Below are positions 18,953 to 32,943 of a DNA stretch of 64,000 nucleotides, in pieces. This DNA comes from Bradyrhizobium sp. CCBAU 51765 (lineage in GTDB: Bacteria; Pseudomonadota; Alphaproteobacteria; Rhizobiales; Xanthobacteraceae): assembly GCF_015291725.1 (NCBI RefSeq), contig NZ_CP030038.1:4887001-4951000 (forward strand). Direction: 5' to 3'. A program made the translations under genes and the position numbers. Every line of letters starts with the position of its first letter. Position 1 is the first letter of the stretch. The notes beneath the pieces are model-generated. The model did no database searches and had not been told where the DNA came from. It saw only the letters and a program-made list of their open reading frames with translations.

Positions 18953-20149
18953 ATGGCGCATGACGCACCCCAGGCCACCGGACCCTCGAAGCTCGTGATC
19001 CGGAACATCGGCCTGATCCTGTCCGGCGCTTTGGAAAAGCCGATCCTGGACGGCGACACCATCGTCGCCGAGAACGGCAAGATCACCGCGATCGGCCGCT
19101 TCAAGGACTGCAACGTCGAAGGCGCAACCACCATCGTCGATGCCCAGGGCACCACGGTGGCGCCGGGCCTGATCGACAGTCACGTCCACCCCGTCGCGGG
19201 CGACTGGACGCCGCGCCAGAACCAGATCAACTGGATCGACAGCTACCTCCATGGCGGCGTCACCACCATGATCTCCGCCGGCGAAGTTCACATGCCCGGC
19301 CGCCCCCGCGACGTCGTCGGCCTCAAGGCGATGGCCGTGTTCGCCCAGCGCGCGTTCTGGACCTTGCGTCCCGGCGGCGTGAAGGTTCACGCCGGCGCGC
19401 CGGTGATCGAATGCGAGATGGTCGAGGAAGACTTCAAGGAGATGGCGGCCAACGGCGTCAAGCTGCTCGGCGAGGTCGGCCTCGGCGGCGTCAAGGACGG
19501 CCCGACAGCGCGGAAGATGGTCGGCTGGGCGCGCAAATACGGCATCCAGAGCACGATCCACACCGGTGGCCCCTCGATCCCAGGCTCCGGCCTGATCGAC
19601 AAGGACGTGGTGCTGGAAGCCGACACCGACGTGGTCGGCCACATCAACGGCGGCCACACCGCACTGCCCGATGACCAGATCCGCTGCATCTGCGAGGGCT
19701 GCAAGCGCGGCCTCGAGCTCGTGCACAACGGCAATGAGCGCTCGGCCTTGTTCACGCTGCGCACCGCGCGCGAGATGGGCGACCTGCATCGCGTCATCCT
19801 CGGCACCGATGCGCCCGCCGGCTCGGGTGTGCAGCCACTCGGCATTCTGCGCATGGTCTCGATGCTGTCCTCGCTCGGCGATCTGCCGGCCGAGATTGCG
19901 TTCTGTCTTGCCACCGGCAACACTGCGCGGATGCGGCAGCTCGATTGCGGCCTGATCGAAGTCGGCCGTTCCGCCGATTTCGTCATCATGGACAAGGCTC
20001 AGCACTCGCCCGGCAAGAACATCCTGGAGAGCGTGCAGCTCGGCGACCTCCCCGGCATCGGCATGACCATCATCGACGGCATCGTGCGAACGCAACGCAG
20101 CCGCAACACCCCGCCGGCGGGAAAGGTGCCGGAGGTGGTGGCGAAGTAG
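18953..20149 (+). CDS. ena: Enamidase (6-oxo-1,4,5,6-tetrahydronicotinate hydrolase)
   Basis: 398-aa amidohydrolase that would open 1,4,5,6-tetrahydro-6-oxonicotinate to ammonia and 2-formylglutarate. Shared with Eubacterium barkeri enamidase as I remember it: HGGVTTMISAG, MPGRP, GVKVHAGAPVI, GEVGLG, HTGG-SIPGS, HINGG, TDAPAGSGVQPLGILR, ATGN, GDLPGI and SRNTPPA near the end. Metal ligands expected at His77/His79 (DSHVHP), Glu174, His203, His230 and Asp286. ATG 18953 is preceded by AAGGAG. It is divergent from fpr and convergent to the marR–liv operon; together with hnr and nicAB it makes a reductive nicotinate route. Confidence 0.88.
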   Translation: MAHDAPQATGPSKLVIRNIGLILSGALEKPILDGDTIVAENGKITAIGRFKDCNVEGATTIVDAQGTTVAPGLIDSHVHPVAGDWTPRQNQINWIDSYLHGGVTTMISAGEVHMPGRPRDVVGLKAMAVFAQRAFWTLRPGGVKVHAGAPVIECEMVEEDFKEMAANGVKLLGEVGLGGVKDGPTARKMVGWARKYGIQSTIHTGGPSIPGSGLIDKDVVLEADTDVVGHINGGHTALPDDQIRCICEGCKRGLELVHNGNERSALFTLRTAREMGDLHRVILGTDAPAGSGVQPLGILRMVSMLSSLGDLPAEIAFCLATGNTARMRQLDCGLIEVGRSADFVIMDKAQHSPGKNILESVQLGDLPGIGMTIIDGIVRTQRSRNTPPAGKVPEVVAK

Positions 20150-20905: not shown

Positions 20906-21610
20906 TCACAACGACAGATGCGCGTCGCGGATATCCGGACGCGCGTCGAGCTCGGCCATGGTGCCGCCGAAGCAGATCCGGCCGCGCTCGATGATGTAGG
21001 CGCGGTCAGAGATCAATCGCGCGAAATGCAGGTTCTGCTCGGAAACGACGATGCTGACGCCCTCCTTCTTCATGGTCAGGATGGCATCGACCATCTGCTC
21101 CACGATCTTCGGCGACAGGCCTTCCGAGGGCTCGTCGAGCAGCACCAGCGAGGGATTGCCCATCAGCGTGCGCGCGATGGTGAGCATCTGCTGCTCGCCG
21201 CCGCTCATGCGGCCGCCGGGACGGTTCTTCATCTCGCCCAGATTTGGAAACAGCGCGAACAGTTTCTCGCGCGTCCAGTGCGGCGCGTTCGGGCGCTTCG
21301 GCTGGCGGCCGACCTCGAGGTTTTCCTCGACTGTCAGGTCAGTGAAGATGCGCCGCTCCTCCGGAACGTAGCCGAGCCCCTCGCGCACGATCTCGTGTGT
21401 CGGCTTCGCCGAGACATCCTTGCCCTCGAACATGATGCGGCCGGAGCGCTGGGCGACGAGGCCGACGATCGAGCGGAACGTCGTCGACTTGCCGGCGCCG
21501 TTGCGTCCCAGCAATGCCACGACCTCACCCTCACCGACCTCGAAGCCGATGTCGAACAGGATATGCGCAGGGCCATAATGGCTGTTGAGGTCTTGCACCG
21601 TGAGCTTCAT
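20906..21610 (-). CDS. livF: ABC transporter ATP-binding protein, LivF type
   Basis: 234 aa. Walker A GRNGAGKST, signature MSGGEQQMLTIARTL, Walker B LVLLDEPSEGL, and the short LivF ending. The start overlaps the livG stop (ATGA). Second ATPase of a branched-chain-amino-acid-type importer; substrate probably nicotinate or a pathway intermediate because the operon also carries hnr and marR (inference). Confidence 0.88.
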   Translation of the reverse strand: MKLTVQDLNSHYGPAHILFDIGFEVGEGEVVALLGRNGAGKSTTFRSIVGLVAQRSGRIMFEGKDVSAKPTHEIVREGLGYVPEERRIFTDLTVEENLEVGRQPKRPNAPHWTREKLFALFPNLGEMKNRPGGRMSGGEQQMLTIARTLMGNPSLVLLDEPSEGLSPKIVEQMVDAILTMKKEGVSIVVSEQNLHFARLISDRAYIIERGRICFGGTMAELDARPDIRDAHLSL

Positions 21611-22398
21611 GCCGATGTTCCCTCGCGGTGGCGGGCATCGTAGACGAGGCCCTCGCCGAGATAGACCGCCTGCACCTGCGGATTGCCACGCACCTCCGCC
21701 GGCGAACCTTCGGCGATCAACGTCCCGCGATTGAGCACGATGATGCGGTCGGCATGCTCGAACACCACGTCCATGTCGTGCTCGGTGAAGAGCACGCCGA
21801 TCGACTTCTCCCGCGCGATGCTCGCGGTCAGCCGCATCAGATCGACGCGCTCGCGCGGGGCCATGCCGGCGGTCGGCTCGTCCATCAACAGCAGCTTCGG
21901 CTGGTTGGCGAGCGCGACCGCAAGCTCGAGCCGCTTGAGGTCGCCATAGGCGAGCTCGCCGCAGGGACGGTCCGCGTAGCCACCCATGCCGACCAGTTCG
22001 AGCAGGCGGCCGGCCTCGCCGCGGTCGAACTTCGGCGCCGAGCCCCAGAGGTTGTAGAGCTGCTTCTCATGCGAAATCAGCGCGACCTGGACGTTCTCAC
22101 GCACGGTCATGGTGGCGAAGGTCGCGGTGATCTGGAACGTGCGCCCGACGCCGAGCCGCCAGACCTCACGCGGCTTCCTGCCCGTGATCTCTTCGCCGAG
22201 CAGGCGGACATGGCCGCTGTCAGGCTTGTTCTGGCCGTTGAGCATGTCGAAGCAGGTGCTTTTTCCCGCGCCGTTCGGACCGATCAGCGCCAGGATCTCG
22301 CCGGCACGCAGCGAGAACGAGACGCCGCGCACCGCATGGATGCCGCCATAAGACTTGGTCAGGCCTTCGACCGCGAGAAGTGGGGGTGTGGCACTCAT
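21607..22398 (-). CDS. livG: ABC transporter ATP-binding protein, LivG type
   Basis: 263 aa from ATG 22398, which overlaps the permease stop by four bases (ATGA). Walker A GPNGAGKST, the LivG insertion region with RTFQITATFATMTVRENV, signature-like ELAYGDLKRLELAVAL, Walker B LLLMDEPTAGM. The longer open frame extending upstream to 23787 is an arginine-rich shadow of the permease gene. First ATPase of the importer. Confidence 0.88.
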   Translation of the reverse strand: MSATPPLLAVEGLTKSYGGIHAVRGVSFSLRAGEILALIGPNGAGKSTCFDMLNGQNKPDSGHVRLLGEEITGRKPREVWRLGVGRTFQITATFATMTVRENVQVALISHEKQLYNLWGSAPKFDRGEAGRLLELVGMGGYADRPCGELAYGDLKRLELAVALANQPKLLLMDEPTAGMAPRERVDLMRLTASIAREKSIGVLFTEHDMDVVFEHADRIIVLNRGTLIAEGSPAEVRGNPQVQAVYLGEGLVYDARHREGTSA

Positions 22399-24284
22399 TC
22401 GGCAGACTCGATCGGCTTGGCAAGCAAGGGAGAGCCCGGCGGCGAAGACTTTCGCCGGCGCTGCGCCAGCATCTCGAGCATGCCGACGATGCCCTTCGGG
22501 AAAACGACGACGATCAGCATGATGAAGCCGCCGAGCACGAGCTTCGACAGATCGGTCTGGCTCACCAGCCAGATGTTCAAGGCCTTGTAGACGATGGCCC
22601 CGATCACCGCACCGGACACCGTCTCGACGCCGCCGAGCAGCACCATGACCAGCGCGTCGACCGACAGCGAGATGCCGAGATTGTCGGGGAAGACGCTGCC
22701 CTTGAGGTAGGCGAACAGCGCCCCGCCGATGCCGGCGGTCGTGCCGGCGATCACGAAAGCGGTCCACTGGATCCGCTTGGCATTGATGCCGACCGCTTCG
22801 CTGCGAAGAAGCGAGTCGCGCGTTGCACGGAGCGCGTAACCGAACGGCGAGAACACCATGGCCCGCAACGCGACGGTCACCAGCGCCGCGACGCCGAGCG
22901 CAAGCCAGTAGAAATGCGACGGGCTCGCCGCCCAGCTCGACGGCCAGAGACCCAGAATGCCATTGTCGCCGCCGGTCACGCTCACCCATTGGAACGCGAT
23001 CGACCACACGATCTGCGCGAAGGCGAGCGTCAGCATCGCGAAATAGACGCCGGAGAGCTGCACCGCGAAGAAGCCGAACACGGCGGCGCCCATGCAGCCG
23101 AGCAGCGGGCCAAGCAACAGACACACGATCATCGGCAGCCCCGCCATTTTGGCGAGGAAGGCGATGCCGTAGGCGCCGAGCCCGAAATAGGCGGCATGGC
23201 CGAAGGACGCGAGGCCGCCGACCGACATCAGGAAGTGCAGGCTGACCGCGAAGATCACGAAGATTGCGATCTCCGAGCCCACGGTGAGCAGATAATTGCC
23301 CGCGAACAGCGGCAGCATCGCTGCGACGACGAGCGCAGCAACCGCCGCCAGCCGTTCGTTCGACGTCAGCGGCCGCCAGGGATTGACGGTGAGGCCAGGC
23401 GTCTTTCGCGCAGCCGCCTCCGGCTTGCCGAACAGGCCCCAGGGTCGCACGATCAGCACCACCGCCATCACCAGGAAGACCAGAATGATGGAGATCTTCG
23501 GGAAGATCAGGATGCCGAAGGCATTCAGCTCCGAGACCAGCACGGCCGCGACGAAGGCACCGACGATGCTGCCGAGGCCGCCGATCACGACCACGACGAA
23601 CACCTCGACGATGATGCGCAGATCCATGGCGTGATGCACGGCATCGCGCGGGATCTGAAGCGCGCCGCCGAGGGCTGCGAGGAAGACGCCGACCGCGAAC
23701 ACCGACGTGAACAGCCATTTCTGATTGACGCCGAGCGCCGCGACCATGTCGCGGTCCTGCGTCGCCGCGCGCACAAGCACGCCCCATCGCGTGCGCTGGA
23801 ACAGCAACCAGAGAATGCCGAGCACGACCGGGCCAAGCACGATCAGGAACAGATCATAGCTCGGAATGTTCTGGCCGAAGAAATCGATGGCACCCCTGAA
23901 GCCCGGCGCGCGGCGGCCGACGAGATCGTCGGGCCCCCAGATCAGGACCACGAGGTCCTCGACCATCAAGGTCAGGCCGAAGGTCGCGAGCAGCTGGAAC
24001 AGTTCGGGCGCGTGATAGATGCGGCGGAGCAGCACCATCTCGACGATCACGCCGATCATCGCCACGGCCAGCGCGGCCAGCACGATGCTGCCCCAGAACC
24101 CAAACGCACCCGAAAGCCGCTCGGTGAGCGTGAAGGCGATGTAGGCGCCGATCATGTAGAAGGCGCCATGCGCGAAATTCACGATCCGGGTCACGCCGAA
24201 GATGATCGACAGGCCCGAGGCCACCAGAAACAGCGACGCTGCGCTGGCGAGACCGGTCAGAAACTGTACGACATAAAAAGCCAT
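22395..24284 (-). CDS. Fused LivH–LivM permease of a branched-chain-type ABC importer
   Basis: 629 aa, about twice the length of either permease alone. Residues 1–290 have the LivH pattern (ASGLSIIFGVTRIVNFAHGAFYMIGAY…, VVIGGLGSIVGAFVAA). Residues 330–610 have the LivM pattern (SVGGLASFGHAAYFGLGAYGIAF…, LRATRDSLLRSEAVGIN, VLLGGVETVSGAVIGA), joined by a soluble linker near 290–315. Both EAA-type loops are present, so one chain may form the whole transmembrane pair. Next to livG (overlap) and, across a palindromic repeat, the binding-protein gene. Confidence 0.92.
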   Translation of the reverse strand: MAFYVVQFLTGLASAASLFLVASGLSIIFGVTRIVNFAHGAFYMIGAYIAFTLTERLSGAFGFWGSIVLAALAVAMIGVIVEMVLLRRIYHAPELFQLLATFGLTLMVEDLVVLIWGPDDLVGRRAPGFRGAIDFFGQNIPSYDLFLIVLGPVVLGILWLLFQRTRWGVLVRAATQDRDMVAALGVNQKWLFTSVFAVGVFLAALGGALQIPRDAVHHAMDLRIIVEVFVVVVIGGLGSIVGAFVAAVLVSELNAFGILIFPKISIILVFLVMAVVLIVRPWGLFGKPEAAARKTPGLTVNPWRPLTSNERLAAVAALVVAAMLPLFAGNYLLTVGSEIAIFVIFAVSLHFLMSVGGLASFGHAAYFGLGAYGIAFLAKMAGLPMIVCLLLGPLLGCMGAAVFGFFAVQLSGVYFAMLTLAFAQIVWSIAFQWVSVTGGDNGILGLWPSSWAASPSHFYWLALGVAALVTVALRAMVFSPFGYALRATRDSLLRSEAVGINAKRIQWTAFVIAGTTAGIGGALFAYLKGSVFPDNLGISLSVDALVMVLLGGVETVSGAVIGAIVYKALNIWLVSQTDLSKLVLGGFIMLIVVVFPKGIVGMLEMLAQRRRKSSPPGSPLLAKPIESAE

Positions 24285-24308
24285 CGGCGGTCCGGGTTAA
24301 GTGAAATC

Positions 24309-24434
24309 GTAGGATGGGTTAGCCCTGCAGATGCGCAGAGCGCATCTGCTCGGCGTAACCCACCACCTCTTCTCGTATGGCTCCGAAAGTGGTGGGTTAC
24401 GCCAAGCGATCTGCGCTCGGCTAACCCACCCTAC
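24309..24434. repeat. Nested inverted-repeat element inside the liv operon
   Basis: Outer arms GTAGGATGGGTTAG (24309–24322) and CTAACCCACCCTAC (24421–24434). Middle arms GGCGTAACCCACCAC (24352–24366) and GTGGTGGGTTACGCC (24389–24403) pair perfectly over 15 bp. A small hairpin CAGATGCGC-AGA-GCGCATCTG lies at 24328–24348. The element sits between binding protein and permease on one transcript. Confidence 0.85.
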
Positions 24435-24445
24435 GGCAGCGGAGA

Positions 24446-25648
24446 TCAATCCTTCGGCCGCAGCTTCGCGACTTCGGCATCGCTGGGCAGATAGTCCGCG
24501 CCTTTCTTATAGGACGAATCCACCATCACGCCCTTGCCGTCCTTCAGCGCGGTCTTGCCGACATAGGCACCGAGCGTCGATTGGTGGTCGATCTTGCGGA
24601 AGGTGATCTCGCCGAACGGTGACGGCATGGACAGCCCTTCCGCCGCGGCGATCAGCTTCTCCGGATCGGTCGAGCCCGCTTTCGCGAGAATGGCGGCCGC
24701 CGACTTGATGGTCTGGTAGCCGACGATCGAGCCGAGACGCGGATAGTCGTTATACTTGGCTTGGTAGGCCTTCAGGAACGCGTCATGCTCGGGCGTCTTG
24801 ATCGAGTACCAGGGATAGCCGGTGACGATCCAGCCCTCCGGCGTCTCGTCCTTGAGCGGGTCGAGATACTCGGGCTCGCCCGTGAGGAACGAGACGACCT
24901 CGCGTCCCTTGAACAGACCGCGGGTGTTGCCTTCGCGCACGAGCTTCACAAGGTCGGCGCCGAAGGTGACGTTGAGGATCGCTTCGGGATTGGCGGCAGC
25001 CACCGCCTGCACCACGGGACCTGCGTCGATCTTGCCCTGCGGCGGCCACTGTTCGTCGACCCACTGGATGTCGGGACGCTTCTCCGACATCAGCTTCTTG
25101 AACACGGCGACCGCCGACTGGCCGTATTCGTAGTTCGGCGCGATCGTGGCCCAGCGCTTGGCCGGCAGCTTCGCCGCCGCCTCGACCAGCATCGCCGCCT
25201 GCATGTAGTTGGAAGGACGCAGGCGGAAGGTGTACTTGTTGCCCTTGGACCAGGTGATGGCGTCCGTCAGCGGCTCGGCCGCGAGGAAGAACACCTTCTT
25301 CTGGTTGGCGAAGTCGCTGACCGCAAGGCCGATGTTGGACAGGAAGGTGCCTGCGAGCATCGCAACGCCCTCGCTCGAGACGAGCTCGTTGGCCGCGGTC
25401 TGCGCGTCGGCCGGCTTGCCGCCATCATCCTTGGAAATGACGACGAGCTTCTTGCCGTTGATGCCGCCGGCCGCATTGATCTCCTCGACCGCAAGCTGCC
25501 AGCCCTTGCGATAGGGCTCGGTGAAGGCCGGCAGCAGCGAATAGCTGTTGATCTCGCCGATCTTGATGTCCTGCGCCAGGGCCGAATGAGCCATGCCGCC
25601 CGCCAAAAGCGCGAAGGCCGCGCCCACAAAATAGTTTCTCGCTCGCAT
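24446..25648 (-). CDS. ABC transporter substrate-binding protein, LivK/AmiC type
   Basis: 400 aa with a Sec signal peptide (MRARNYFVGAAFALLAGG…, cleavage after ALAQ). Type 1 periplasmic binding fold: DIKIGEINSYSLLPAFTEPYRKGWQLAVEEINAAGG at the start of the mature protein, DGGKPADAQTAANELV (about 75), ATIAPNYEYGQS (about 165). It lies 80 bp after the DUF1185 gene on the same strand, suggesting one long transcript from hnr. The ligand is unproven; nicotinate or 6-hydroxynicotinate is the contextual guess. Confidence 0.88.
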   Translation of the reverse strand: MRARNYFVGAAFALLAGGMAHSALAQDIKIGEINSYSLLPAFTEPYRKGWQLAVEEINAAGGINGKKLVVISKDDGGKPADAQTAANELVSSEGVAMLAGTFLSNIGLAVSDFANQKKVFFLAAEPLTDAITWSKGNKYTFRLRPSNYMQAAMLVEAAAKLPAKRWATIAPNYEYGQSAVAVFKKLMSEKRPDIQWVDEQWPPQGKIDAGPVVQAVAAANPEAILNVTFGADLVKLVREGNTRGLFKGREVVSFLTGEPEYLDPLKDETPEGWIVTGYPWYSIKTPEHDAFLKAYQAKYNDYPRLGSIVGYQTIKSAAAILAKAGSTDPEKLIAAAEGLSMPSPFGEITFRKIDHQSTLGAYVGKTALKDGKGVMVDSSYKKGADYLPSDAEVAKLRPKD

Positions 25649-25728: not shown

Positions 25729-26313
25729 CTATCTCAGACCGTCTTCGCCCTTGATCTCCGCAACCGTGAGCCCACCGACGCGCGGCAGCGGACGGCCGCT
25801 GTCGGTGACGGCGACCGCGACCATGATCTCGTTGGCGCGCGGCGCATCGTTGATCTGCACTTCCATGCCGTCGAAGTGACTGCGCACGAAGGCAGCATCC
25901 TTGTGCCCGAGCGGAATGTCCAGCGTCGTGCCCGGGCCGCTACGCTTCTTCGAGGACGGGATCAGAGCTGCGCCCTTGCCCAGCACCTTGCGCACCGGCG
26001 CGCCCATCTTGGGGTGGAGGATTGCGGCGGCATGCTCCAGCTCGCCGTTCTCGCCGACGGCGGCGGCTTTGCCATAGCTCTGCGCCTTGGCGCCATCGAT
26101 GCCGAGCGCAGCCACCGCGCGCTTCGACAAGAGCTCACCCAGCTCCTCGCCGATCGCGATCAGCGGCGACAGATCCTCGACATATTTTCCGGCGAACGGA
26201 TTCTCGATGACGGCAATCGCAGCCGCACGCCGGGTCGGCGGCGACACCTGCCGGCCCATCTCCATCTGCGTCTCTTCGACGACGGTGACGATCTTGCGAA
26301 TGATCGCGCTCAT
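25729..26313 (-). CDS. DUF1185 'amino acid synthesis' family protein
   Basis: 194 aa. Matches the DUF1185 pattern as I know it (IRKIVTVVEETQMEMGR, AIAVIENPFAGKYVEDLSPLI, GKAAAVGENGELEHAAAILHPKMGAPVR, NEIMVAVAVTDSGRPLPRVGGL). Soluble, no signal peptide. No activity is established for the family; the conserved acidic/His segment around ELEHAAAILH could be catalytic. It lies 26 bp after UPF0280 in the hnr operon, so a role in nicotinate breakdown, perhaps a tautomerase- or hydrolase-like step, is possible but speculative. Confidence 0.75.
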   Translation of the reverse strand: MSAIIRKIVTVVEETQMEMGRQVSPPTRRAAAIAVIENPFAGKYVEDLSPLIAIGEELGELLSKRAVAALGIDGAKAQSYGKAAAVGENGELEHAAAILHPKMGAPVRKVLGKGAALIPSSKKRSGPGTTLDIPLGHKDAAFVRSHFDGMEVQINDAPRANEIMVAVAVTDSGRPLPRVGGLTVAEIKGEDGLR

Positions 26314-26339: not shown

Positions 26340-27236
26340 TCAGGCATGAACCGCGTTCTCCAGCGTAACCGGGCGCGATCGCTGCCGCTCAATATCTTTC
26401 GGTCCGATGACAAGCATATCACCACAAAGCTGCAACACGGCACCCTCGATCAGTCCGCGATCGAACAATTGCCGTGCACGTTCTGCGCCAGATTCGAGTG
26501 CGGCAGCGATCTCATCGAGAGACAGCTCGCCGACATCGCGGGTGACGAGGCGCGCGCCCAGATCGCTGTCGGGCTGAAGCTCGGTCGCAGGCCTCCGGAT
26601 GATGGCGGGATGCCCGGGCAGGTCGACGGCATTCGCGATCACCGTCGCCGCCGCATCGGCCTGCGCTGCGGTCGCCGCCAGCACCGTCACGGCATCGGCG
26701 ATGCCGAGCGAAAAGCTGCGGCCGTGGCGTCCGCTGGTCGCGACGCCACGCGACGGATCATTCGCATCGATCCTCATCGTCCGCATCACACCGTCGCGGT
26801 CGGGCCGATCCATCAGTCCGACCGAAAAATGCGTGCCTTCAGCGAGATGAAGCGCGATGTCGCCACCATTGTTGACGTAAGCCCGATCGAGCGTCGCAAC
26901 GCGCAGCATCGCCCCCAGAATCTCCTCGGCCACGCTGCCTGCAACAGCCGCCATCGGCGTGATGAAGCAATCGGCGGCATAGGGCGCGACAGCGGCGTGC
27001 ATACGACGCGCGACGGCGCCGGTCAGCGAAGTCCGCGTCGCAGCATCCGCACGCAACTCAGTCAGTTCCGCGCATAGCTCGTCGAGAAGCCCGGTGAACC
27101 GGCGCGCCGCAGCCTCATAGGCCGCGCGCACCTCGTCCGCACGTCCCCTCGCCTCCACGATCAGATCAATCGGTCCATCCTGCAAATGCAGCCGCCGGCC
27201 ATCAGACAGCAATGCGATTTGCGGGCGCCTCGTCAT
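26340..27236 (-). CDS. UPF0280 family protein (ApbE superfamily)
   Basis: 298 aa from ATG 27236, which overlaps the hnr stop (ATGA). Typical UPF0280 blocks: ADCFITPMAAVAGSVAEEIL (about 96–115), RAYVNNGGDIALHL (about 125–138, the NxGGD motif shared with ApbE), SFSLGIADAVTVLAATAAQADAAATVIANAVDLP (about 180–213). COG2122 is classed with the ApbE superfamily, whose main members attach FMN covalently to proteins. Since E. barkeri 6-hydroxynicotinate reductase carries a covalent flavin, this protein is a candidate flavin transferase for the gene it is coupled to (inference). The longer frame upstream is a shadow. Confidence 0.82.
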   Translation of the reverse strand: MTRRPQIALLSDGRRLHLQDGPIDLIVEARGRADEVRAAYEAAARRFTGLLDELCAELTELRADAATRTSLTGAVARRMHAAVAPYAADCFITPMAAVAGSVAEEILGAMLRVATLDRAYVNNGGDIALHLAEGTHFSVGLMDRPDRDGVMRTMRIDANDPSRGVATSGRHGRSFSLGIADAVTVLAATAAQADAAATVIANAVDLPGHPAIIRRPATELQPDSDLGARLVTRDVGELSLDEIAAALESGAERARQLFDRGLIEGAVLQLCGDMLVIGPKDIERQRSRPVTLENAVHA

Positions 27237-28690
27237 GTCCGGCGCCCCGGAATCGGGTGATGCCATGGCAACTGGCGGACATCGTCGCCGTTCTGAACCT
27301 CGGAGAGCGGCTTCACGTAGTCCATGTGGCCGCCGAGCGCGGCATAGTCGGACAGCGTCATCGTGAACTCGATCGGCGCGACCAGCGCCGGCGTCGGCAC
27401 ATAGCCGAACGCGCCTGACGGCATCTGCGTCACGTCGACCATGTAGGTGATGCCGCCGCCGGGCCAGACATAGACCGGCGCGCCGCCGCTGGTGACGCGC
27501 GTCAGCGCATCCTTCACCGAACGCGTCAGTCGCACCGGATTGTCGGTGACACCGGCACGCAGTGAGCCGCCGGCGCCAGCCATGAACAGCACCGTGCACA
27601 GCGCCGGCTCGCAGTTTTCCTGGATCCGCTCGACCGAGAATCTCAACTCGGCCGGCATCTCGGTCTCGATCGGCTTCAAGGCTTCGTCGAGCACGTAATA
27701 CGACGAATGCTCGCCCGTGGTGGAGACCATCAGCATGGTCAGACCGGGCTTCGCTTCCTTGGCATCGAACGGCCCGAGGATCGACAAGGGATCGGAAATG
27801 TTGGTGCCGCCCCAGCCCGTGCCGGGATCGGCGACCTGGAAATAGCGGCCGGGCGTGGAGCGCCGTCCCTTCATCTTGATGCCGGTGTCGGCGATGTCGA
27901 GAAGCTTGCCGGCCTGATGCTCCGAGAGCACCCCGGTGATGTGGTCGTCGACCACGACCACCTCGTCGACCTTGCCGTGCCATTGCTTGGCGAACATGCC
28001 GATCGTCGCCGAGCCGCAGCCGACGCGCATGCGCTCTTCTTTCATGCCGTTGACGATCGGCGGCTGCCCGGCCTGCACCACCACGGTGGCGCCACCGTCA
28101 ATGGTGAGCTCGACCGCCTTGCAGTTAGCAAGGTCCATCAGCGTGTCGCAGGTGACGCGGCCTTCCTTCTTGGAGCCCCCGGTGAGATGATGCACGCCGC
28201 CGAGCGACAGCATCTGCGAGCCATATTCGCTGGTCGTGACGTGGCCAACCGCCTCGCCCTGCGCGCGAACGGTCGCGGTCTCCGGACCAAGATAACGATC
28301 GGTGTCGATCTTCACCTTGATCCCGCAATAGGAGAAGATGCCCTCGGTGACCACGGTCACCATGTCGACCCCGTCGACCTCAGCGGCGACGATGAACGGC
28401 GCCGGCTTGTAGTCGGGATAGGTCGTGCCCGCACCGATCGCGGTCACGAAGGTCGAGGGTTCGTGGACGATCTTGCCGTCCCAGTCTTCGGTGCGACTGA
28501 AGGGAACGAGCTTGCCGCCATGCGAGACCGTACGCTCCAGGATCACGTGCGGATCGACACGGACGAGCTTGCCGTCGTGATTGGCGTAGCGGTCGCAGGC
28601 ACCCGCTGCGCCCGGCTTGATGTAGCACATCACCGGACAAGCATCGCAGCGGATCTTGTCGATGACGGCGCTCGTCGTTTCAATCACCAT
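27233..28690 (-). CDS. hnr: 6-hydroxynicotinate reductase
   Basis: About 485–491 aa. Expected to reduce 6-hydroxynicotinate to 1,4,5,6-tetrahydro-6-oxonicotinate with low-potential electrons. The N-terminus carries a cysteine cluster CDACPVMC…AGAC (C-x2-C-x3-C-x9-C) suited to a [4Fe-4S] centre; more cysteines occur at VGCGSATIG and NCEPALC. The length agrees with the roughly 54-kDa subunit of the E. barkeri enzyme, which has covalent flavin and Fe–S clusters. First gene of the operon with UPF0280, DUF1185, the liv importer and marR. Start uncertain: GTG 28708 or ATG 28690, neither with a clear ribosome site. Identification rests on remembered similarity plus the enamidase and nicAB context. 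Confidence 0.8.
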   Translation of the reverse strand: MVIETTSAVIDKIRCDACPVMCYIKPGAAGACDRYANHDGKLVRVDPHVILERTVSHGGKLVPFSRTEDWDGKIVHEPSTFVTAIGAGTTYPDYKPAPFIVAAEVDGVDMVTVVTEGIFSYCGIKVKIDTDRYLGPETATVRAQGEAVGHVTTSEYGSQMLSLGGVHHLTGGSKKEGRVTCDTLMDLANCKAVELTIDGGATVVVQAGQPPIVNGMKEERMRVGCGSATIGMFAKQWHGKVDEVVVVDDHITGVLSEHQAGKLLDIADTGIKMKGRRSTPGRYFQVADPGTGWGGTNISDPLSILGPFDAKEAKPGLTMLMVSTTGEHSSYYVLDEALKPIETEMPAELRFSVERIQENCEPALCTVLFMAGAGGSLRAGVTDNPVRLTRSVKDALTRVTSGGAPVYVWPGGGITYMVDVTQMPSGAFGYVPTPALVAPIEFTMTLSDYAALGGHMDYVKPLSEVQNGDDVRQLPWHHPIPGRRT

Positions 28691-28887: not shown

Positions 28888-28930
28888 GTATCGTTCGCCG
28901 CCGTAGAGTTACGCGCGCTTGGGAACGAGG

Positions 28931-29413
28931 ATGACGAAGACACCGATCCGCCTCACCGTGAACGGCAGGATCCACGAAATCACGGCGGAGCGCCAGACGC
29001 CGCTGCTCTATGTGTTGCGCAACGAGCTCGCGCTCAATGGCCCAAAATATGGTTGCGGCCTCGGCGAATGTGGCACCTGTACTGTCCTGATCGACGGCGC
29101 GGCGGCACGCTCCTGTGTGATTCCGGTGAGCGGCTGCGCCGGCCGCGACATCGTGACGCTCGAAGGCCTCGGCACCCGCGACAAGCCCGATGTGGTGCAA
29201 CAGGCCTTCATCGACGAGCAGGCCGCACAATGCGGCTATTGCCTCAACGGCATGATCATGACCACCAAGGCGCTGCTCGCGATCAACCCGCGGCCGAGCG
29301 AGCAACAGGCGCTGGCGGCGCTGCGCTACAATCTCTGCCGCTGCGGCACCCATGTCGAGATCCTGCGCGCGGTGATGCGGGCATCCGGCCAGCTCGTCGA
29401 GGCCGCGGACTGA
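28931..29413 (+). CDS. nicA: Nicotinate hydroxylase small subunit, 2×[2Fe-2S] (NicA)
   Basis: 160 aa, the size of Pseudomonas putida NicA. The plant-type [2Fe-2S] site is Cys42, Cys47, Cys50 (GCGLGECGTC) and Cys62; the second cluster uses Cys101, Cys104 (QCGYC) and Cys136, Cys138 (LCRCG), as in xanthine-oxidase-family small subunits. It passes electrons from the molybdenum site of NicB to its haems. ATG 28931 follows GGGAACGAGG. The stop shares a base with the nicB start (TGATG). Transcribed away from hnr from a gap with two operator-like palindromes. Confidence 0.9.
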   Translation: MTKTPIRLTVNGRIHEITAERQTPLLYVLRNELALNGPKYGCGLGECGTCTVLIDGAAARSCVIPVSGCAGRDIVTLEGLGTRDKPDVVQQAFIDEQAAQCGYCLNGMIMTTKALLAINPRPSEQQALAALRYNLCRCGTHVEILRAVMRASGQLVEAAD

Positions 29414-32400
29414 TGGCCTCCCCTGTTTCGAACGGAGCTGAGCGGCCATCGGGTTCGCTCGTCGTCGCCCGCACCGTGGACGAGGTCACATCCGAGACCT
29501 TCGTCCGCATCACCGCGGACGGAGCGGTCACGGCCTATAACGGCCATGTCGATCTCGGCACCGGCATCCGCACCGCCCTTGGCCAGATCGTCGCCGAGGA
29601 GCTCGACGTTTCCTTTGCGCGCGTCGTGGTCGTGCTCGGCGACACGTCGGTGGTGCCGAACCAGGGCGCGACGATCGCCAGCGAGACCATCCAGATCACC
29701 GCGGTGCCCCTGCGCAAGGCCGCGGCGCAGGCGAGGCACTTCCTGATCGCGCGCGCGTCCGAGCGGCTGGAGCTGCCGGCCTCCGAGTTACGGATCGAGG
29801 ATGGCCTCGTGCGCGGGAACGACAACCGCAGCGTCAGTTATGGCGAGCTGATCGGCGGCGAAGAGATCCGGCTCGAGCTTGCCGACGACGTCGCGGTCAA
29901 ACCTGTCGGCGACTACGCGATCGTCGGCCAGTCGACGCCGCGCGTGGATCTGCCCGCCAAGGCCACGGGCGAGCTGACCTTCGTCCACGACATCCGCGTG
30001 CCGGGCATGCTGCACGGCCGCGTGGTGCGGCCGCCCTATGCCGGCGTCGATGCCGGACCGTTCGTCGGCACCAGCCTGCTCGCGGTCGATGAATCCTCGG
30101 TACGCGACATTCCCGGCCTGATCGCGGTGGTGCACATCGGCGATTTCGTCGGCGTTGTCGCCGAGCGCGAGGAGAATGCGATCCGTGCGGCAGAGCATCT
30201 CGAAGTGAGCTGGAAGCCGACGCCCGCCCTCACCGACCTTGCCGATGTCGAGACCGCGCTGCGCGCCAATCCGTCGACGCCGCGCACGCTGATCGACAAG
30301 GGCGAGGTCGACAAGGCGATATCGGGCGCGGCCAAGCCGATGCAGCGCACTTATGTCTGGCCGTATCAAATGCACGCTTCGATCGGCCCATCCTGTGCCG
30401 TCGCCGACTACAGGGACGGCAATATCCGCGTCTGGTCGGGCACTCAGAACCCGCACGTGCTGCGCAGCGATCTTGCGCTGCTGATCGAACGTCCCGAGAG
30501 CGAGATCGAGGTGATCCGGCTCGAAGCCGCCGGCTGCTACGGCCGCAACTGCGCCGACGACGTCACCGCCGATGCGCTGCTGCTGTCGCGCGCCGTTGGC
30601 CGGCCCGTTCGCGTGCAATTGACACGCGAGCAGGAGCACGCCTGGGAGCCCAAAGGCACCGCGCAGCTCATCGACGTCAACGGCGGGCTCGATGCCGACG
30701 GCGGCATTGCCGGTTACGATCTCACAACGCGCTATCCCTCGAACACCGCGCCGACTCTGGCGCTGCTGCTGACCGGCCGCATCTCGCCCGATCCGGCCGT
30801 GCTTCAGATGGGCGACCGCACCGCGATCCCGCCCTACGATTACGACCACATGCGCGTCGTCGCCCACGACATGCCCCCGATCGTGCGCGCCTCATGGTTC
30901 CGCGGCGTCTCGGCACTGCCGAACACCTTCGCGCATGAATCCTATATCGACGAGGCCGCGACCGAGGCCGGCGTCGACCCGATCGAATACCGCCTGCGCT
31001 ATTTGAAAGACCAGCGCGCCGTCGATCTCGTCAATGCAGTCGCCGAACGCGCGGGCTGGACGCCGCGGCCGGTCCGTGAGGAGAAAGACGGCGAGGTCGT
31101 GCACGGGCGCGGCTTTGCCTACGCGCTTTATGTCCACAGCAAGTTTCCCGGCTATGGCGCGGCGTGGTCGGCCTGGGTCGCCGACGTCGCGGTGAACAAG
31201 ACGACGGGCGATGTCAGCGTCACGCGCGTCGTCGCGGGACAGGACTCCGGCCTGATGATCAATCCGGACGGCGTGCGCCACCAGATCCATGGCAACGTCA
31301 TCCAGTCCACCAGCCGCGCGCTGATGGAGGAAGTGTCGTTCGAGCGCGGCGCGGTGGCGGCACGCGAATGGGGCGCCTATCCCATCATTCCCTTCCCCGA
31401 CGTGCCCAAGATCGACGTCCTGATGCTGCCGCGTCAGGATCAGCCACCGCTCGGCGTCGGCGAATCCGCCTCGGTGCCGAGCGCGGCGGCGATCGCCAAC
31501 GCGATCTTCGATGCCACCGGCGTGCGCTTTCGCGAGCCGCCGTTCACGCCTGAACGCATCCTGAAAGGGCTGCACGGTGATGCACCGGCGACACCACAGG
31601 CCCTGCCCCCTCCCGCGGCGTCGCAGCCGGCCCGCATCTGGCAAAACCCGTTCGCAAAGCGTGCCGGCCTCTTCGCGACCATTGCGGCTTTCTGCACCGC
31701 CGCAATCGGCGTCGGCGCGGCGCTGCTGCCGGGCCGCGCGATTGCACCCATCGCGCGCCCCGACGCGTCGGTCTATTCCGCGGCGACGATCGCGCGCGGA
31801 GAGGTGCTCGCGGCGCTCGGCAATTGCGCGGAGTGCCACACCTCGACCGGCGGCGCGCTCAACGCCGGCGGCCGCGCGCTTGAAACGCCGTTCGGCACGA
31901 TCTACGCGACCAACATCACGCCCGACGTCGAGACCGGCATCGGCGCCTGGTCCTATCCAGCCTTCGAGCGCGCCATGCGTGACGGGCTGCACCGTGATGG
32001 GCGGCAGCTCTATCCGGCCTTTCCCTACACGCATTTTGCGAAGACCAGCGACGCGGACATGCAGGCACTCTATGCCTACCTGATGGCCCGGCCCGCGGTG
32101 CGCGCGACGACGCCGGCGAATGCGCTCGCCTTCCCGTTCAATCTCCGCCCGCTGCTCGCGGGCTGGAACGCGCTGTTCCACCAGACGCGCGAGTTCAAGC
32201 CCGATCCCGCCAAGTCCGAGCTCTGGAATCGCGGCGCCTATCTGGTCGAGAGCCTCGGCCATTGCAGCGCCTGTCATTCGCCGCGCAACGCGATCGGCGC
32301 CGAGCAGCGCGAAGCCTATCTCGCCGGCGGCTTTGCCGAGGGCTGGGAGGCACCGGCGCTGACCTCAGTCTCGCAGGCACCGATCCCGTGGAGCGAGGAT

Positions 32401-32943
32401 GAGCTTTTCGCTTATTTGCGCACCGGCCATTCGCGCTATCACGGCGTGGCGGCCGGCCCGATGGCGCCGATCGTCCGGGACCTCAAGGCCCTGCCCGACC
32501 AGGACATCCGTGCGATGGCGGTCTATCTCAACTCGTTCAACGACGCCGCGACCGACCGGCAGGCGCAGGATGCGCTCGCGGCAAAGCTCGAGAGCGCAAC
32601 CCAGGTCACCGTTGCCTCTTCCACCGGCGCGCGGTTGTACCTGGGCGCCTGCGCCGTCTGCCACGAGGTCGGCGGCCTACCGCTGTTCGGCACTCGCCCC
32701 TCGCTCGCGCTGAACAGCAACCTGCACAGCGGAACGGCGGACAATCTGGTCCAGGTGATCCTGCATGGGATCGCCGAACCGGTCACAAGCGATCTCGGCT
32801 ACATGCCCGCCTTCAAGGGCAGCATGAGCGACGCGCAGGTCGAGGAGCTCGTGACGTTTTTGCGCAAGCAGTTCGCACCCGACAAGCCGGCCTGGACCGG
32901 CGTGCGCGAGACGATCGCGCGGCTGCGCACATCGGCGCACTGA
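29413..32943 (+). CDS. nicB: Nicotinate hydroxylase large subunit: molybdopterin domain fused to a tri-haem cytochrome c (NicB)
   Basis: 1176 aa, matching NicB of P. putida. Residues 1–about 720 are the molybdopterin aldehyde-oxidoreductase fold (GHVDLGTGIRTALGQIVAEEL, PNQGATIASETIQ, YGRNCADDV, GVGESASVPSAAAIANA). A membrane-anchor-like segment AGLFATIAAFCTAAIGVGAALL follows at about 755–780. The C-terminal part has three haem c sites: CAECH (Cys805), CSACH (Cys951) and CAVCH (Cys1080). It hydroxylates nicotinate to 6-hydroxynicotinate with water and sends electrons to the respiratory chain rather than NAD. No dedicated XdhC-like maturation gene is nearby. Confidence 0.9.
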   Translation: MASPVSNGAERPSGSLVVARTVDEVTSETFVRITADGAVTAYNGHVDLGTGIRTALGQIVAEELDVSFARVVVVLGDTSVVPNQGATIASETIQITAVPLRKAAAQARHFLIARASERLELPASELRIEDGLVRGNDNRSVSYGELIGGEEIRLELADDVAVKPVGDYAIVGQSTPRVDLPAKATGELTFVHDIRVPGMLHGRVVRPPYAGVDAGPFVGTSLLAVDESSVRDIPGLIAVVHIGDFVGVVAEREENAIRAAEHLEVSWKPTPALTDLADVETALRANPSTPRTLIDKGEVDKAISGAAKPMQRTYVWPYQMHASIGPSCAVADYRDGNIRVWSGTQNPHVLRSDLALLIERPESEIEVIRLEAAGCYGRNCADDVTADALLLSRAVGRPVRVQLTREQEHAWEPKGTAQLIDVNGGLDADGGIAGYDLTTRYPSNTAPTLALLLTGRISPDPAVLQMGDRTAIPPYDYDHMRVVAHDMPPIVRASWFRGVSALPNTFAHESYIDEAATEAGVDPIEYRLRYLKDQRAVDLVNAVAERAGWTPRPVREEKDGEVVHGRGFAYALYVHSKFPGYGAAWSAWVADVAVNKTTGDVSVTRVVAGQDSGLMINPDGVRHQIHGNVIQSTSRALMEEVSFERGAVAAREWGAYPIIPFPDVPKIDVLMLPRQDQPPLGVGESASVPSAAAIANAIFDATGVRFREPPFTPERILKGLHGDAPATPQALPPPAASQPARIWQNPFAKRAGLFATIAAFCTAAIGVGAALLPGRAIAPIARPDASVYSAATIARGEVLAALGNCAECHTSTGGALNAGGRALETPFGTIYATNITPDVETGIGAWSYPAFERAMRDGLHRDGRQLYPAFPYTHFAKTSDADMQALYAYLMARPAVRATTPANALAFPFNLRPLLAGWNALFHQTREFKPDPAKSELWNRGAYLVESLGHCSACHSPRNAIGAEQREAYLAGGFAEGWEAPALTSVSQAPIPWSEDELFAYLRTGHSRYHGVAAGPMAPIVRDLKALPDQDIRAMAVYLNSFNDAATDRQAQDALAAKLESATQVTVASSTGARLYLGACAVCHEVGGLPLFGTRPSLALNSNLHSGTADNLVQVILHGIAEPVTSDLGYMPAFKGSMSDAQVEELVTFLRKQFAPDKPAWTGVRETIARLRTSAH

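Follow-up and report, generated by a model that had tools for sequence, protein, structure and literature searches.

UPF0280, encoded with 6-hydroxynicotinate reductase, has a predicted ApbE fold and is a candidate flavin transferase for this enzyme

The window analysed here is a 64,000-nt stretch of Bradyrhizobium sp. CCBAU 51765 (NZ_CP030038.1, 4,887,001 to 4,951,000), and all coordinates are positions within it. It contains a nicotinate-type cluster in which hnr, the gene of 6-hydroxynicotinate reductase (Hnr), is followed on the same strand by a UPF0280 gene (Table 1). Relatives of Hnr at 66-73% in the plasmid collection are annotated hnr, and a Bradyrhizobiaceae homologue is given at 42% to the Hnr of E. 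barkeri in the available text of PMC3511419. Three features described in the initial annotation were found in the sequence: the overlap of the UPF0280 start codon with the hnr stop codon, the NGGD block of UPF0280, and the SGAF segment of Hnr, located 57 residues before the C-terminus. By eye, no signal peptide was seen in Hnr or UPF0280 and no lipobox in UPF0280.

The other genes of the cluster include a molybdenum-hydroxylase pair, whose large subunit (29410-32943, + strand) carries cytochrome c domains in three fused stretches and is placed divergently from hnr. Among the loci of the best 80 of 593 Hnr relatives, an AA_synth gene lies near hnr at 71 of 80, or at 54 of 58 when the count is restricted to long-flank loci. 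AA_synth is a second candidate companion of Hnr.

Table 1. Genes and sequence features of the hnr-UPF0280 region (positions in the window).
Feature	Position	Strand	Remarks
Amidohydrolase, candidate enamidase of the nicotinate pathway	18953-20149	+	Farther off
Branched-chain-type ABC transporter	20906-25648	-	Binding protein and one ATPase by profile; permease read from sequence
AA_synth (PF06684) gene	25729-26313	-	Directly after UPF0280
UPF0280 (COG2122, PRK04334.1-2), 298 aa, predicted ApbE fold	26340..27236	-	Including stop
UPF0280 D194-x-x-x-T198, aligned with Asp/Thr metal ligands of ApbE	26643..26657	-	Profile alignment, conservation
UPF0280 loop S168-G...G172-R-S-x-S-x-G-x-A-D181	26694..26735	-	Profile alignment, conservation
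NGGD block of UPF0280, residues 123-126	26859..26870	-	GGD unchanged in all 143 rows (133 Hnr-type, 10 DUF39-type)
ATGA overlap, UPF0280 ATG over hnr TGA	27233..27236	-	Same 4-base overlap at 77/108 distinct loci
hnr, 6-hydroxynicotinate reductase, 485 aa	27233..28690	-	Plasmid relatives annotated hnr
SGAF of Hnr, residues 425-428, rejected acceptor	27407..27418	-	In 12/135 distinct rows
DDHITGVLSEH of Hnr, residues 248-258, weak candidate acceptor	27917..27949	-	135-row alignment
Molybdenum-hydroxylase pair	28919-32943	+

The initial annotation had proposed looking for UPF0280 next to hnr-like genes in other genomes, and the association proved to be tight. Hnr and UPF0280 were each detected in 38 of 240 alphaproteobacterial genomes and the two lists are identical, an identity that carries no phylogenetically corrected probability, the genome samples being evenly drawn yet related. 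At least part of UPF0280 adjoins hnr on one contig in 37 of these 38 genomes; the remaining one has partial or contig-end matches of both proteins on separate contigs. Among 398 Pseudomonadota genomes, Hnr was detected in 32, every one of which also gave a UPF0280 match by profile search, and the only further profile match (33 in total) is a weak one, covering 64 positions with an E of 1.6e-4, in a genome without Hnr. The plasmid collection gave a similar picture, with Hnr in 26 records and UPF0280 in 27, all 26 hnr records sharing both. Relatives of Hnr or UPF0280 were not found in viral contigs.

The arrangement of the two genes is also conserved. Out of 108 distinct loci with Hnr, 105 carry UPF0280 downstream on the same strand, 77 of these sharing exactly 4 bases and 25 more having a spacing of at most 60 bases, and the three remaining genomes encode their single UPF0280 away from hnr; the scan of genome contigs for hnr loci covered the best 80 of 593 relatives. 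Distances between Hnr sequences and between UPF0280 sequences correlate with r 0.66 over 80 pairs, the best of 999 permutations reaching 0.22, a correlation in which shared descent remains. The pairing is beyond chance, and UPF0280 is very probably a dedicated partner of Hnr.

The additional UPF0280 plasmid is a 24.8-kb plasmid of Hydrogenophaga sp. BPS33, on which UPF0280 occurs at four places. In the copy examined, the frame directly upstream of UPF0280 still carries a short remnant of the hnr tail, near IS1071 copies. The repeat units of this plasmid hold UPF0280, the hnr remnant, ring-oxygenase-type genes and IS1071 transposases.

The placement of UPF0280 in the ApbE superfamily was confirmed by profile and fold comparisons. 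The protein scores over the gathering cut-off of the Pfam ApbE family (PF02424, 28.4 against 25.6 bits, E 1.4e-6) and over the cut-off of NCBIfam PRK04334.1-2 (NF003322, 425.1 against 290 bits), with only 35 of 82 Hnr-type UPF0280 proteins reaching PF02424 at E 0.01. Its predicted model (pLDDT 92.9) has DVU1097 as best solved match (2o34, Z 19.7) and aligns over 210-218 residues with ApbE at Z 15.6 (1vrm, 6nxi; V. cholerae, T. maritima). The ApbE-type matches (Z 14-15.6) span residues 11-290 of the model, and the next unrelated fold is urate oxidase at Z 7.8. The prediction thus suggests that UPF0280 adopts the complete double T-fold of ApbE.

To compare active-site residues, we used a profile alignment of UPF0280 with 20 ApbE-family rows from Hnr-bearing genomes, two of which are short fragments, and a conservation alignment of 143 UPF0280 rows (133 Hnr-type and 10 DUF39-type). 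The GGD, the Ser of ATSG and the AD-x-x-x-T ligands of ApbE correspond to residues 124-126, 168 and 194-198 of UPF0280, and GGD, S168, D194 and T198 are invariant in all 143 rows. Ser168 aligns with the active-site Ser of ApbE (Ser241 of V. cholerae ApbE), and the roles of the Asp and Thr as metal ligands in ApbE-type enzymes are described in the available portion of PMC8906456. The initial annotation had made its proposal depend on UPF0280 having the metal/FAD-binding residues of ApbE; the metal ligands are kept, but the HxxDPxTG loop bearing the general-base His (His257) falls in a gap of UPF0280 on the profile alignment. This His is present in 18/18 full-length canonical ApbE rows, and in UPF0280 the S168-D181 loop stands in place of the segment that bears it.

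The FmnB active site comprises the corresponding Asp, Ser and His, and there the change of His to Ala abolishes activity while that of Ser to Ala only lowers it, according to the part of PMC8906456 at hand; in V. cholerae ApbE, activity is lowered when the His is changed to Gly, according to the accessible text of PMC12052999. Because the loss of this His is abolishing in one enzyme and lowering in the other, we consider its absence from UPF0280 a serious but not a fatal objection. A Lys is also essential in FmnB. By our reading of the alignment its position is occupied by Ala99 in UPF0280 and by Gln in 13 of the 18 full-length canonical relatives, and the loss of the Lys is therefore not decisive. 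Taken as predicted, the fold and metal site of UPF0280 point to phosphoryl-transfer chemistry on a nucleotide such as FAD.

We also looked for other flavin transferases in Hnr-bearing genomes. At E 0.001, PF02424 matches nothing in the Bradyrhizobium genome; since this genome search misses UPF0280 itself, it tests canonical ApbE only. A canonical ApbE match is lacking in 24 of 44 Hnr genomes, some of which are incomplete, and present in the other 20.

On the side of the substrate, 6-hydroxynicotinate reductase of E. barkeri reportedly carries covalent flavin (Alhapel et al. 2006). Hnr has an N-terminal CxxCxxxC...C (C15, C18, C22, C32), and its four Cys are present in every ungapped row (133-134 of the 135 distinct Hnr rows). 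The SGAF segment, suggested earlier as an ApbE-type target, did not hold up: it occurs in only 12 of the 135 rows and its Ser is usually replaced by Ala, Glu, Asp or Gln, so that SGAF cannot be a general acceptor site. The published acceptor motif D-x-x-[ST]-G-A-[ST], as given in the available part of PMC12052999, is found in 0/135 rows. A relaxed form, D-x-x-T-G-V-x-[S/T], occurs in 134/135 rows at D249-H-I-T-G-V-x-[S/T]256, where Asp, Thr and Val are invariant, Gly is kept in 134/135 rows and residue 256 is always Ser (115) or Thr (20). The background of this motif in the other long open frames of the 80 loci is 10 matches per 244,587 residues, or 0.02 per 485 residues, for a motif chosen after inspecting the Hnr alignment, in which many other Ser and Thr are also invariant. 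A hydroxyl kept across a Ser/Thr exchange is the pattern that would be expected for an acceptor, but the motif exceeds the published one by a residue and was picked out by inspection, so that we treat it as no more than a lead.

By sequence, Hnr had no solved relative up to E 10, and Foldseek returned no match at E 0.001. The best fold match, with Z 4.5 over 72 residues, is to the glycine-cleavage T-protein, in its C-terminal barrel. Residues 122-158 of Hnr also give a weak Pfam match to this barrel, seen across the family (84 of the 85 members) with a best E of 3.9e-5.

A second branch of the UPF0280 family is associated with another protein. UPF0280 was found in 11 of 297 Acidobacteriota genomes, one being Hnr-bearing (the search centre) and 10 having a shorter divergent form. 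Match coordinates place DUF39 (HcyBio, PF01837) within about 1 kb of UPF0280 in all 10 genomes of the latter kind, and no match to Hnr was obtained in the stretches around UPF0280 that were searched in them. DUF39 was detected in 0/20 tested of the 286 UPF0280-free Acidobacteriota genomes and in 0/44 Hnr genomes, including that of Bradyrhizobium, with a search control that was positive in three named genomes. Thus, in our sample the partner of UPF0280 is either Hnr or DUF39. The two types of UPF0280 are related (profile probability 99.6%) and differ at a few positions: residue 173 is Arg in 132/133 Hnr-type rows and His in 9/10 DUF39-type rows, residue 122 is Asn in 133/133 Hnr-type rows and Asp, Glu or Ser in the DUF39-type, and residue 166 is Ala in 133/133 Hnr-type rows and Cys in 9/10 DUF39-type rows. 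We rejected homology between Hnr and DUF39 themselves (profile probability 0.4%), their best local match, V-T-T-x-x-[Y/F]-G, being not significant. Seven of the 10 Acidobacteriota DUF39 proteins have a fused C-terminal two-cluster ferredoxin-like stretch by alignment, checked by Pfam in two of them. The family is not wholly without an assigned role, and any reading has to account for it: by genetics, Desulfovibrio needs COG2122 to make homocysteine (PMC5764234, available sections), and the COG2122/DUF39 branch is genetically tied to sulfide use (PMC12068725, likewise in part). This known homocysteine role cannot apply in the Hnr genomes, as DUF39 is absent from 44/44 of them.

A rival reading takes up the proposal made for MA1715 and has UPF0280 as a factor for sulfur trafficking or persulfide, which here would serve the assembly of the iron-sulfur clusters of Hnr. 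The link of COG2122 and DUF39 to sulfide use and homocysteine synthesis in the two partly available studies above (PMC5764234, PMC12068725), the N-terminal Cys motif of Hnr and the 10/10 adjacency of the divergent UPF0280 to DUF39 are consistent with such a factor, which we nevertheless consider unlikely here: the Hnr-type alignment has no Cys among its invariant residues, the one Cys typical of the other branch (Cys166) being Ala throughout, the invariant residues are those of an ApbE-type metal and phosphate site, and DUF39 is not present in any of the 44 Hnr hosts. The setting of UPF0280 in a nicotinate-type cluster, and a fold class that includes uricase and GTP cyclohydrolase IB (Z 7-8), would also suit a role within nicotinate catabolism itself, as a pathway enzyme or as a protein that binds an intermediate, with UPF0280 trailing hnr only through the operon. 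We judge this distinctly improbable, since the other branch of UPF0280 pairs with homocysteine synthesis and not with pyridine catabolism, and since UPF0280 accompanies hnr more tightly than other genes of the cluster (54/57 distinct long-flank loci), although at the loci of the best 80 of 593 relatives AA_synth is equally close (54/58) and the molybdenum-hydroxylase small subunit nearly so (53/58). The loss of the His loop, together with the stoichiometric and translationally coupled genes, could instead be explained if UPF0280 had no catalysis of its own and were a chaperone or subunit of Hnr, limited to holding free flavin or stabilising the apo-protein; this too has a small probability in our view, since all 143 rows from two branches retain the GGD block, the Ser and both metal ligands (Asp, Thr), as would be expected of an active site.

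We therefore favour the reading that UPF0280 is an enzyme dedicated to the maturation of Hnr, and probably a cytosolic flavin transferase of divergent type, with a probability of about 0.5. Genomic coupling, predicted ApbE fold, metal ligands, Ser, the lack of a visible signal peptide and the lack of a canonical ApbE in this genome and in 24 of 44 Hnr genomes speak for the flavin transferase put forward in the initial annotation, while the missing His loop, the lack of the canonical acceptor motif (0/135), the canonical ApbE of the other 20 Hnr genomes and the low share of Hnr-type UPF0280 reaching PF02424 (35 of 82) speak against it. That UPF0280 attaches flavin to Hnr is given even odds because the fold and metal site, the covalent flavin said to be present in the E. 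barkeri enzyme and the lack of a DUF39 role are set against the missing His and motif. In this maturation, UPF0280 and Hnr would be made from one message and UPF0280 would act on Hnr in the cytosol, with FAD and Mg2+ bound between the two T-fold domains of UPF0280 and FMN passed on to a Ser or Thr of Hnr, for which Ser/Thr256 is the first candidate. The G-[R/H]-S-x-S-x-G-x-A-D loop may replace the work of the missing His loop, and the flavin would let Hnr convert one-electron iron-sulfur chemistry to two-electron ring reduction. A broader and rather doubtful extension is that the family flavinylates both Hnr and the DUF39 homocysteine synthase, iron-sulfur reductases unrelated to each other, by His-less ApbE chemistry on a new acceptor motif, with residue 173 (Arg/His) marking the partner; on this view DUF39 would be a flavoprotein that has escaped notice, and the sulfur-trafficking role of MA1715 would be secondary.

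For UPF0280/COG2122, a structure has been solved (2o34) and two genetic phenotypes have been published; a biochemical activity was not found in the literature. In the non-subscription literature searched, no paper contains both ApbE and hydroxynicotinate, and five papers name DUF375, UPF0280, DVU1097 or COG2122, none of which, in the texts as available, pairs the family with Hnr; the accessible part of a flavinylation survey (PMC8238504) does not mention COG2122, UPF0280, DUF375 or nicotinate. The one-to-one pairing with Hnr in aerobic, easily grown bacteria without the homocysteine pathway sets UPF0280 apart from sulfur metabolism and opens its activity to a direct test by co-expression. If the proposed function is true, the missing attachment enzyme of a covalent flavoprotein gets a name, and homocysteine formation in methanogens and sulfate reducers becomes a place to seek flavin.

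Compared with known systems, UPF0280 shares with ApbE/Ftp/FmnB (PF02424) the predicted fold, the ATSG Ser, the GGD region and the AD-x-x-x-T ligands, but it differs by a divergent N-terminal half, by the absence of the HxxDPxTG loop and, by eye, of a signal peptide or lipobox, and by a partner without D-x-x-[ST]-G-A-[ST]. The COG2122/UPF0280 proteins of the DUF39 branch (DVU1097, PDB 2o34; MA1715; DvMF_0044) belong to the same family, with Z 19.7 to 2o34 and the same AVAG, GGD, S...G-[R/H]-S-x-S-x-G-x-[A/C]-D and AD-x-x-A-T blocks, whereas their partner is DUF39 and not Hnr. Finally, the cytosolic ApbE of Klebsiella, acting on a soluble fumarate reductase (PMC12052999, available part), resembles the proposed system in being an intracellular flavin transferase for a soluble reductase, although it is a canonical ApbE with a standard acceptor motif in its target, neither of which applies to UPF0280.
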